Assembly (NCBI RefSeq): GCF_000017505.1
Contig: NC_009675.1
Span: forward strand, 1,302,001-1,366,000
Direction: 5' to 3'
DNA length: 64,000 nucleotides
Origin: Anaeromyxobacter sp. Fw109-5
GTDB taxonomy: Bacteria > Myxococcota > Myxococcia > Myxococcales > Anaeromyxobacteraceae
In this document: positions 45,994 to 49,295 of the stretch, one piece after another
Layout of the letters: each line of letters opens with the position of its first letter
How positions within the stretch are numbered: position 1 is the first letter of the stretch
Translations under genes and position numbers: made by a program
The notes under the pieces: generated by a model
Database searches by the model: none
Told to the model about the DNA's origin: nothing
Seen by the model: the letters and a program-made list of their open reading frames with translations, nothing else

Positions 45994-46200
45994 TCACTTG
46001 CCGAGCAGGTTGGCGGGCGGGACGCCCAGCGCCTTGGCCATCTTCTCGATGGTCTCGAGCGGCGGCGAGCGCTGCCCGCGCTCGAGCATGGAGACGTACG
46101 AAACGGAGATCCCGACCTTGTCGGCCAGCGCCTTCTGCGAAAGCTTCTTCTTCGCCCGGAGGCGCCGCACGTTACCGGCGAACCGCGTCAGGAGATCCAT
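45994..46200 (-). CDS. XRE-family transcriptional regulator
   Basis: A 68-residue helix-turn-helix protein of the Cro/C1 (XRE) type that is almost nothing but the DNA-binding domain: NVRRLRAKKKLSQKALADKV, then GISVSYVSMLERGQRSPPLETIEKMAKALGV in two consecutive helices. It is divergent from the two-gene selenoprotein operon with 125 bases between them, and could regulate that operon and itself. Minimal XRE proteins often bind as dimers to short repeated sites, and a repeated decamer is present in its promoter region. Confidence 0.92.
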   Translation of the reverse strand: MDLLTRFAGNVRRLRAKKKLSQKALADKVGISVSYVSMLERGQRSPPLETIEKMAKALGVPPANLLGK

Positions 46201-46325: not shown

Positions 46326-46838
46326 ATGGCAGCAAAGCCGAAGCCCGTCTGGCGGCTGGAGGTCGGCGACGAGGCGCCGGACTTCGAGCTGATGGCCACC
46401 GGCAACACCGCCGGTAAAGGGGACGCCCGGCGGAAGATCCGCCTGTCGGACTACCGCGGCAAGAAGAACGTGGTGCTGGCGTTCTACCCCGCCGCCTACA
46501 CCCCCGTCTGAACCGTCCAGATGCCCTCGTACGAGGAGGATCTCTCCGAGTTCGAGCGGCGCAATGCCCAGGTCCTGGGCATCAGCACGGATCAGGTCCA
46601 CACGAACGAGGCGTGGGCGAAGTCGATGGGCGGGCTGTCGTTCCCGCTCCTGTCCGATCACTGGCCGCACGGCTACGTGGCCGCCCTCTACGGCGTCCTG
46701 CGCGGCGAGAGCGGCATCTGCGAGCGCGCCATCTTCGTGGTCGACAAGCAGGGGAAGATCGCCTACGTCGACATCCACGACATCGCCGAGCAGCCGCCCA
46801 CCGACAAGATCATGGCGGCGCTCGACAAGCTGAAGTGA
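46326..46838 (+). CDS. Selenocysteine-containing peroxiredoxin
   Basis: A 170-residue peroxiredoxin if the in-frame TGA at 46509-46511 is read as selenocysteine. The frame before and after it encodes one continuous peroxiredoxin: FYPAAYTPV, then TGA as residue 62, then TVQMPSYEEDL. The family has PxxxTxxC here, so Sec replaces the peroxidatic Cys. Arg134 (CERAIFVVDK) is the expected catalytic Arg, and Cys132 beside it is the only cysteine, a possible resolving partner. It reduces peroxides, resembling AhpE/PrxU. AAAGGAG at 46312-46318 supports the ATG. A SECIS-like hairpin follows the TGA. The GrdB-like gene starts 10 bases later. Confidence 0.85.
46519..46543 (+). promoter_or_regulatory. Candidate bacterial SECIS of the peroxiredoxin gene
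   Basis: Just after the TGA (46509-46511) the coding RNA can fold with a lower stem AGAT/ATCT (46519-46522 with 46540-46543), a small internal loop, an upper stem CCTC/GAGG (46525-46528 with 46533-46536) and a GTAC loop whose first base is G. The loop starts 17 nt after the TGA. This geometry suits SelB-binding bacterial SECIS elements, which have little primary-sequence conservation. Confidence 0.6.
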
Positions 46839-46848
46839 CGGAGGCGAG

Positions 46849-47553
46849 ATGGCCACCGCCGAGCCCAAGCCGCTCGAGCTCTCCCGCTACTGCGTGCCGT
46901 TCACGCCCTTCCAGGGAAAGCTCGAGGAGACCTCCATCTGCCTGGTCTCGACGGCGGGGGTGCGGCACCGCGACGACGCGCCGTTCAACACCGAGGGCGA
47001 CGCCACCTGGCGCGTCATCGGGAGCGACGTCGCGGCGAAGGACCTCCGCTACGACGACACGCACTACGATCACGCCTGCGTGGATCGCGACCTGAACTGC
47101 GTGTTCCCGATCGATCGGCTCCACGAGCTCGCGCGCGAGGGGCGCGTGCGCGGGCTCACCGAGCGCCACTTCTCGCTCGGCTTCAGCCAGGCGCTGCGCG
47201 AGCTGCGGGAGAAGACCATCCCCGCCCTCGTGCGCGAGGTGGACCGCGAGCGCCCGGGCGCGGTGCTCCTCACCGGCGGCTGACGCCTGTGCCACCGCAC
47301 GGTGGTCACCGTGCAGCGGGCGATCGAGATGGTGGGCATCCCCACCGTCGTGGTGACCGTCGAGCCCGAGGAGACCCGCCAGGCACGCCCGCCGCGGGCG
47401 CTCTGCCCGCGCGGCTTCGTCGTCGGCCACTCCCTCGGGCGGCCCGACGACGCGGCGCTGCAGAAGTGGATCCTGATGGACGCGCTCGGCCTCCTCCTCG
47501 CCGATCCGCGGCCGGGCGAGGTCATCGAGCGCGACTACACCAGCGGGGAGTGA
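46849..47553 (+). CDS. Selenoprotein B-family reductase (GrdB/PrdB-like) with Sec
   Basis: A 234-residue protein if the in-frame TGA at 47281-47283 is read as selenocysteine (residue 145). The parts on both sides match one family, glycine/sarcosine/betaine/D-proline reductase selenoprotein B: PFNTEGDATWRVIGSDV, HYDHACVDRDLNCVFPIDRL, VLLTGG, then TGA, RLCHRT and AIEMVGIPTVVVTVEPEE. The redox motif is U-x-x-C (Sec145, Cys148). The family makes selenoenzymes that split C-N bonds, but standalone short members like this one have unknown substrates. It is co-transcribed with the selenocysteine peroxiredoxin. A SECIS-like hairpin follows. Confidence 0.82.
47289..47309 (+). promoter_or_regulatory. 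Candidate bacterial SECIS of the GrdB-like gene
   Basis: Six bases after the TGA the RNA can form GTG+CCACC (47289-47296) paired with GGTGG (47301-47305) and, after a single bulged T, CAC (47307-47309). The GCAC loop again starts with G. It is an 8-bp stem, stronger than the peroxiredoxin one; its loop begins 13 nt after the TGA, slightly closer than typical. Confidence 0.6.
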
Positions 47554-47599: not shown

Positions 47600-49120
47600 T
47601 CACGGACCGTCGTACGCGGTCACGCCCCCCGGCCCGAACTTCGACGCGAGGTGCGCCAGGTAGACGATGCGCGGGCTCGCCCATCGATCGATCTGGATGG
47701 AGCGCACCGGCCCCCGCGCCGAGGCGGGCAGCGCGTCCCAGGCGATGTCCCGGATCCACCGGCCGCCCCGGTACCGCGCGAAGCCGCCCCAGGAGAGCCC
47801 CACCCACACCCCGCGGTCCAGCGGATCGCACGCGACGGCGAGCACGCCGCCGCCGTCCGGCGGGCTGCCGACCTTGGTGAACGTCGCGTCGCGGCTTCCC
47901 CGGAAGGCGAGCCCGTGCGACTCCGAGCCGACCCACATCGTGCCGTCGTCGCAGAAGGCGATCGACTGCACGCCGTCCCGCTTCGAGGCGTCGACCGGAT
48001 CCGCGTCCTCCTCCCAGATCCACAGGTGCGGCAGGGGCGGCTCCTGGTTCCCCCACCACAGCCCGTGGAGCGCCGTCACCGACGGCCGCGCCATCGACGC
48101 GTAGCCGGGGAGGCTCGCCATGCGGAACTGGTTGGCGTACCAGGGGACGTTCGACGTGGGGTCGAACGCGAGCGCCCACGCCTCGCCGGTGAGGAACTGA
48201 TCGTGGGCGTAGATGGCGGGGTGCTCGTGCTCGAACACGCTCCGCGCGTCCGCCCAGGCGGGATCGCCGCCCGTGAGGTCCTGCCAGCCGCGGTCCTCCG
48301 GGTTGGCGACCAGGATCGCGATGGAGGCGTGCGTCCCGCCCAGGAGCGCGTCGCCGTACGAGCGCGGGCGGCGCGCGTCGTGGTTCACCACGATGCGCTG
48401 CACCTGCCGCATCTTTCGCCGCCCGCCGACCATGAACGGATCCCAGCCGAAGCACTGCTCGTCGCCCGTGCCCGGGACGAAGAACTCGCAGACGTAGCCG
48501 GGCGGCGTGGCGACGCGGACGTGGCGCTCGCGCGCGAGCGTCGTGCCGTCGAAGGTCACGACGTCCGCGCCGCCGGAGTCGACCGCCCAGTCGGCGTCCG
48601 TGTCGCCGTCGGTGCCGACGCCCCTGAAGCCGACGATGGCGCGGTTGGGCGTGGCCCCCGCGACCGAGATGACGGGGCACATCACCGCCGGGTCCGCGGG
48701 CGCCGGGGTCGCGATCCCCGCCGCGTCGTGGCAGTTCTTCGTGAGCCCCGCGTCGTCCGCGTCGAAGCGCCGGAACTCCTGCGCCGCGCGCGTCTTCGCG
48801 TACACCGCCTCGCCCGCCGCCACGTAGACGTTCCCGGCCTCGTCCGCGGAGACGTCGCTCACCTCCCCGACGAGCCCCTGCCCGGCGCTCCAGAAGCGGA
48901 ACTGGCCGACGACGACGGGCGGGTCGACGGTCGGCGCGACGCCGCCTCCCGCGCCTCCGCCGCCGCCCCCGCCTCCGTCGCCGCCTCCGCCGGTGCCGCC
49001 TCCGCCGCCGGTACCGCCCGTTCCGTCGCCGCCGGAGTCATCCGGCGTCTTCGTGCCCCCGCCGCCGCACGCGGCGACGAGGAGCGCGGCGAGCGCAGCC
49101 GTCCAGCGCATCCGCCCCAT
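47600..49120 (-). CDS. Lipoprotein with glycine-rich linker and propeller-like domain
   Basis: A 506-residue putative lipoprotein. The signal peptide ends in the lipobox LVAAC (residue about 17), and a glycine-rich linker of about 45 residues follows. The rest has spaced short repeats of the type ISVAG, VAADEAGNVYVA, VQSIAFCDDGTMWVGSES and VLAVACDPLDRGVWVGLSWGG, typical of beta-propeller folds such as the two-component-regulator propeller. No catalytic motif is recognised; it is probably surface-bound. The ATG at 49120 has AGGAGA about 7 bases upstream. Confidence 0.72.
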   Translation of the reverse strand: MGRMRWTAALAALLVAACGGGGTKTPDDSGGDGTGGTGGGGGTGGGGDGGGGGGGGAGGGVAPTVDPPVVVGQFRFWSAGQGLVGEVSDVSADEAGNVYVAAGEAVYAKTRAAQEFRRFDADDAGLTKNCHDAAGIATPAPADPAVMCPVISVAGATPNRAIVGFRGVGTDGDTDADWAVDSGGADVVTFDGTTLARERHVRVATPPGYVCEFFVPGTGDEQCFGWDPFMVGGRRKMRQVQRIVVNHDARRPRSYGDALLGGTHASIAILVANPEDRGWQDLTGGDPAWADARSVFEHEHPAIYAHDQFLTGEAWALAFDPTSNVPWYANQFRMASLPGYASMARPSVTALHGLWWGNQEPPLPHLWIWEEDADPVDASKRDGVQSIAFCDDGTMWVGSESHGLAFRGSRDATFTKVGSPPDGGGVLAVACDPLDRGVWVGLSWGGFARYRGGRWIRDIAWDALPASARGPVRSIQIDRWASPRIVYLAHLASKFGPGGVTAYDGP

Positions 49121-49295
49121 CCCCGTTCTCCTGCGCGCTTGCACGGACGGTGGGCCAGCGGGCCCGAAGCACGCGCCGAAAAGCTGGCCCGGCGGCGCCG
49201 GTTCGCCAAGCCGGGGAGCGGGGCGGAACTCCCCGTGGGAGCGGCGATCCGAGCGCGTTCTGGCGCGCGCGGACGCCTCCGGTCACAATCGGGCG

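Follow-up and report, generated by a model that had tools for sequence, protein, structure and literature searches.

A PrdB-like selenoprotein of Anaeromyxobacter encoded beside a selenocysteine peroxiredoxin, and its possible role as a peroxiredoxin recycling partner

Surveys of bacterial selenoproteins count PrdB-type proteins, which bear the name of an enzyme of amino acid fermentation, among the more abundant ones. A frame interrupted by a TGA at 46849-47553 of the window (the whole stretch of 64,000 nucleotides from Anaeromyxobacter sp. Fw109-5 that was analysed) was assigned in an earlier note to the GrdB/PrdB family, and raises two questions: is the TGA read as selenocysteine (Sec), and is the product a reductase of the kind that its family names imply? 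The host genome is a single contig of 5,277,990 bases. The features referred to below are the following.

45994-46200, minus strand: small HTH (XRE-type) regulator, divergent from the gene pair (Pfam HTH_3, E=1e-20; synteny)
46326-46838, plus strand: AhpC/TSA-family peroxiredoxin with Sec in TPVU (U62) and no conserved second Cys (Pfam AhpC-TSA, E=1e-36; alignment; adjacent in 23 of 23 loci)
46509-46511, plus strand: UGA codon of the peroxiredoxin (U62), an in-frame TGA within TPVU
46840-46844, plus strand: GGAGG, a ribosome-binding-like site within the 10-nt gap between the peroxiredoxin and PrdB-like genes
46849-47553, plus strand: PrdB-like selenoprotein gene, 234 aa with U145-x-x-C148 (reading frame, profile matches and orthologues)
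47281-47283, plus strand: UGA read as Sec (U145; TGA in 21 of 23 orthologues and TGC in two, in a genome with Sec machinery)
47297-47314, plus strand: predicted bacterial SECIS hairpin GCACGGU-GGUC-ACCGUGC, its loop beginning 20 nt after the UGA (cross-genome comparison)

Selenocysteine at the in-frame TGA

The frame runs from the ATG at 46849 to a stop at 47551-47553 and is open through a single internal TGA (47281-47283), giving a product of 234 aa in which U145 lies in the context LTGG-U-RLC-HRT. The earlier note had described this TGA as the second in-frame one of the region, placed where the family carries its redox Sec or Cys and followed by RLCHRT, with family matches on both sides; each of these points was borne out. 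The 144 residues before the TGA match the PrdB profile TIGR04483 by themselves (E=4.5e-24), as do the 89 residues after it (E=5.5e-12).

Close orthologues, 58-100% identical, were found in 23 of 195 Myxococcota genomes, the window's own included; the closest named relatives, found by exact peptide patterns, are Anaeromyxobacter terrae, A. soli, A. oryzae and A. sp. PSR-1. At residue 145 the codon is TGA in 21 of the 23 (again counting the window's own) and a Cys codon in the remaining two, L022 and L023. The comparison with Cys homologues that had been proposed for this residue therefore gave Cys at the expected column, and the same holds for two distant homologues, a Paraclostridium and a Roseomonas protein. 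When the window gene was compared with its Sec orthologues, substitutions at codon positions 1, 2 and 3 amounted to 0.15, 0.16 and 0.34 per codon before the TGA and to 0.12, 0.09 and 0.35 after it; since the coding pattern is kept there, the part downstream of the TGA is under protein-level selection. The genome also encodes tRNA-Sec (75 bits), SelB (325 bits), SelA (545 bits) and SelD. The SelD gene (4028582-4029508 of the contig) itself carries an in-frame TGA, and SelD is therefore probably a selenoprotein as well.

Read by default as a stop, the TGA would leave the downstream half as a decayed gene or a chance frame, and a hairpin in a single sequence is not unusual for such GC-rich DNA. 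The occurrence of TGA at the same codon in 21 genomes with Cys in two, the purifying selection downstream and the full Sec machinery leave this explanation with almost no probability, and it was rejected. The results confirm that 46849-47553 encodes a real selenoprotein with Sec at the TGA.

The predicted SECIS element was compared among the orthologues. The same 7-bp hairpin geometry with a GGUC loop is present in 19 of the 21 Sec genes, and in five aligned sequences synonymous third positions have changed as a pair (ACG..ACC to ACC..ACG) with pairing kept, although these five come from few branches and perhaps represent one to three events. None of 500 shuffles attained the covariation score of 0.147, and the score was lower when the pairing was slid. 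In the predicted folds of both Cys genes a SECIS-type hairpin with a GGUC loop is missing. In a genome so rich in GC, the hairpin of the window does not reach significance by itself (z=-0.28; p about 0.2); it is the comparison across genomes, and not the single sequence, that supports the SECIS assignment.

Placement relative to PrdB and GrdB

The best NCBIfam family for the protein is PrdB, the D-proline reductase subunit (TIGR04483), with E=9e-44 over residues 18-226 and a score of 149.7 bits, which is half of the equivalog cut-off of 300 bits. True PrdB proteins from Terrisporobacter and Enterococcus plasmids, used as controls, scored 425 and 401 bits, and on both plasmids prdA lies two genes upstream of prdB. 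Homology with PrdB extends over the whole length, at 34-39% identity to annotated PrdB proteins, and the two are of the same size class (234 aa here, 241 aa in true PrdB). In the alignment the Sec or Cys of the UxxC motif stands at the PrdB family position, within UxxCHR in both; two features of true PrdB, its GGGG loop and its ALPP motif, are both replaced, the latter by VEPEE, and two additional invariant cysteines, C31 and C77, are present. The maximum-likelihood tree groups the Myxococcota proteins with two non-myxobacterial ones, L054 and L062, in one clade (100/99), which is the sister of the PrdB clade (join 99/99).

Similarity to GrdB, GrdF and GrdH (the selenoprotein B of glycine, sarcosine and betaine reductases; PF07355, TIGR01918) is more distant and concerns their C-terminal half. 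UxxC is common to both groups, but GrdB-type proteins are about 435 aa long, and the protein remains below the Pfam and NCBIfam cut-offs: Pfam GRDB (PF07355) gave 19.5 bits over residues 20-109 only, against a gathering score of 22 bits, and a PF07355 search of the own genome gave no match. A third candidate, the UGSC family (NF041046), was set aside as a weak similarity only (14.9 bits against a cut-off of 125).

The pyruvoyl-subunit family PF09338, which covers PrdA and GrdE, was absent from this genome and from nine related Myxococcota genomes, while both control plasmids were positive; the PrdA profile TIGR04480 was likewise absent from the genome, in a search in which no control matched either. 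The family names imply a B subunit of D-proline (or glycine-type) reductase, and the strong TIGR04483 match together with the identity to annotated PrdB proteins could be read in that way. We nevertheless regard this assignment as highly improbable: the score is far below those of the true PrdB proteins, the PF09338 partner is lacking, true prdB genes sit behind prdA, and the proteins examined here fall into a separate clade. The protein is a PrdB homologue of a separate clade and, by the tests applied, not a D-proline reductase. Of the family claim in the earlier note, the homology to PrdB and to the C-terminal part of GrdB thus stands, whereas "GrdB/PrdB reductase" is unsafe as a name. The same applies to its description as a stand-alone short member: it does stand alone, with no PrdA/GrdE-type subunits, but next to a true PrdB of 241 aa it is not short.

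Structural comparison yielded no function from the fold. The structure model is confident (pLDDT 90), and its comparison with the PDB and a viral library returned nothing at E<0.001; sequence searches of the PDB gave no convincing relatives, and a scan of viral contigs gave none.

Outside the Myxococcota, relatives were sought by exact peptide patterns. A Roseomonas plasmid protein (L083:4887-5795) has Cys at the Sec column and adjoins selO. The prdB gene of a Peptoclostridium acidaminophilum plasmid (L081:4941-5654), which contains Sec, scores 310 bits, just above the PrdB cut-off, and has no prdA annotated within 5 kb; it is possibly a further stand-alone PrdB.

The selenoprotein itself had already been known. 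Among the A. dehalogenans selenoproteins, a 2006 survey lists a "proline reductase" besides three peroxiredoxins (PMC1794560); this "proline reductase" is probably the orthologue of the gene described here, which is therefore not a newly seen selenoprotein. PrdB selenoproteins with UxxC numbered 42 in the Sargasso Sea survey (PMC1088965) and 235 in the GOS survey (PMC2398784). These surveys by Zhang and Gladyshev (PMC1794560, PMC1088965, PMC2398784) assign selenoproteins from Anaeromyxobacter, from Geobacter and from marine metagenomes to "proline reductase PrdB", and the UxxC motif of those selenoproteins recurs in the PrdB-like protein; as far as the available text of the three extends, the proline reductase name is used and no pairing with a peroxiredoxin was found.

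Pairing with a selenocysteine peroxiredoxin

The first TGA of the region, which the earlier note had placed 770 bases before the second, does precede it, at a measured distance of 772 bases (46509-46511 to 47281-47283). It belongs to a Sec peroxiredoxin that forms a conserved pair with the PrdB-like gene, a relationship that had been missed. In all 23 orthologous loci the peroxiredoxin gene lies directly upstream, ending 4-70 nt before the start of the PrdB-like match; the two genes apparently form one operon, and we infer that they are co-transcribed. In Anaeromyxobacteraceae-type loci more neighbours besides the pair are common, including the divergent HTH regulator, which is conserved only there and could possibly control the pair. 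In L043-L046 and L048-L050 the pair is kept and none of the other tested neighbours was found. Convergent with the pair in the window is the gene of a predicted 514-aa protein (47603-49144, minus strand) with an N-terminal lipoprotein-like signal; it gave no Pfam match and was found only in close relatives.

The two proteins also occur together. Close orthologues of the peroxiredoxin (E<=1e-60) were present in 24 of 193 Myxococcota genomes, 23 of which are exactly the carriers of the PrdB-like gene (Fisher p=7e-29, a value not corrected for relatedness). The exception, G157, has the peroxiredoxin with no PrdB-like sequence just downstream and none among the close orthologues. Moreover, the Sec/Cys state is joint: both proteins have Sec in 21 genomes and both have Cys in the same two (L022 and L023), where the peroxiredoxin motif reads TPTC. 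The two Cys genomes are sisters in the tree, so the switch of both proteins from Sec to Cys was probably a single event; one of them, G048, retains tRNA-Sec and SelB. According to the alignment, a second Cys is conserved in none of the peroxiredoxins: 9 of the 21 Sec forms have no Cys at all, and the two Cys forms have the catalytic Cys only. In the PrdB-like proteins linked to a peroxiredoxin C31 and C77 are invariant, and both are absent from L054 and from the distant homologues.

A second, distant set of Myxococcota PrdB-like selenoproteins (L024, L025, L026, L027, L028 and L030) has the motif P-[AV]-U-x-x-C, and some of its members are extended at the N and C termini. Their neighbouring frames were taken as listed, ahead of any family search, and none stood out as an AhpC/TSA gene; the pairing claim is for this reason limited to the close clade.

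A peroxiredoxin-type selenoprotein gene beside a second selenoprotein gene has precedents in the Prx/SelW-like and Prx-like/AhpD-like operons (PMC13188914, PMC2398784), in which the second protein is of a different family from the PrdB-like one. Both operons are named in a 2026 review of selenoprotein operons, which does not include the PrdB-like/peroxiredoxin pair (PMC13188914). The pairing and the reinterpretation that follows thus appear to be new within the accessible literature.

Possible role of the PrdB-like protein

The conserved pairing with a Sec peroxiredoxin points to a role in peroxide or thiol-redox chemistry rather than to a Stickland-type amino acid reductase. Where a peroxiredoxin lacks a resolving thiol of its own, one has to be supplied from outside, and the PrdB-like protein offers Sec145 and Cys148, in addition to C31 and C77. 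The most economical reading of the pair is that of a dedicated reductase: the PrdB-like protein may be a (seleno)thiol adaptor that uses its UxxC motif to recycle the one-Sec peroxiredoxin in an AhpD-like manner. We give this reading a probability of roughly 45%. In the proposed cycle, Sec62 of the peroxiredoxin would reduce the peroxide and be left as a selenenic acid. Because a resolving cysteine is not conserved in the peroxiredoxin, Sec145 of the PrdB-like protein is proposed as the residue that would attack this selenenic acid, or the mixed selenide formed from it; Cys148 would then close an Se-S bond within U-x-x-C and free the peroxiredoxin. The oxidised PrdB-like protein would finally be re-reduced by a general dithiol donor, either thioredoxin or a dihydrolipoyl group. 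Contact between the partners and this path of electrons are what we infer from the pair, and gene pairing alone would be no proof of direct contact between the proteins.

The model for this proposal is the AhpD-AhpC system of Mycobacterium (NADH to Lpd to DlaT to AhpD to AhpC), in which a separate thiol protein likewise reduces a peroxiredoxin. AhpD is unrelated to the PrdB-like protein, and the proposed functional analogy is a working one with no homology claimed. The reductant of mycobacterial AhpD is the dihydrolipoyl E2, DlaT (PMC12028322). In L054, the nearest homologue outside the Myxococcota, and in L067, the gene is flanked on one side by a 2-oxoacid (pyruvate)-dehydrogenase-type E1a-E1b-E2 cluster with a PHP gene and on the other by a lipoyl synthase gene; by comparison with AhpC-AhpD this neighbourhood suggests a lipoyl donor, a lead that comes from one lineage (L054/L067). 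The fuller scheme, a two-selenoprotein peroxidase system in which a PrdB-derived protein was recruited as the dedicated reductase of the one-Sec peroxiredoxin and is possibly lipoyl-fed, is put forward a shade more tentatively than the adaptor role itself. Several observations were counted against the adaptor: the closest peroxiredoxin in the L054 genome lies about 48 kb from the PrdB-like Sec gene, near a thioredoxin reductase and a ClpC-like gene; G157 has the peroxiredoxin without a PrdB-like gene; and the joint Sec/Cys switch was probably one event.

The family is known for reductive C-N bond cleavage, and the PrdB-like protein may therefore have a small-molecule substrate. The protein could be a GrdB/PrdB-type small-molecule reductase that works without a pyruvoyl subunit, with the peroxiredoxin only shielding its selenol from oxidation. 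Such a function would agree with the chemistry of PrdB and GrdB (PMC3091704), with the position of the clade as sister to PrdB, and with the conservation within the clade of the pocket-like motifs VEPEE and RPPRAL. It is made rather unlikely, at about half the weight of the adaptor, by the absence of a PrdA/GrdE-type subunit, to which the substrate binds in the known enzymes, and by the missing GGGG loop of true PrdB; furthermore, a mere protector would not be expected to match its client so exactly in presence and in Sec/Cys state.

Peroxidase activity has been reported for the homologous GrdB, as indicated by the title of Groebe et al. 2007 (cited in PMC3091704), so that peroxide chemistry has a precedent in the PrdB/GrdB family. 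That title, and the presence in UxxC of both a reactive Sec and its resolving Cys, would also fit a second peroxidase, a selenol peroxidase that is expressed along with the peroxiredoxin and defends in parallel against other peroxides. Parallel enzymes, however, need not be inherited and recoded jointly, and the peroxiredoxin would still be left without a resolving thiol; we consider this the less probable of the two alternatives, and improbable overall.

If the recycling role is true, the "proline reductase" genes of this clade, and perhaps of others, would be oxidative-stress genes under a name that misleads for these soil bacteria and perhaps for further ones. In addition, the pair would be a clear example of two selenoproteins exchanging Sec for Cys in step, with relevance to the question of why Sec is retained.

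PrdB-like Sec genes were also observed in other settings. That of L054 lies in the stretch L054:1450-7641, together with the E1a-E1b-E2 cluster, the PHP gene and the lipoyl synthase gene. Anaeromyxobacter soli has a second such gene (L078:8693-9241), which lies beside a LysR-like regulator gene.
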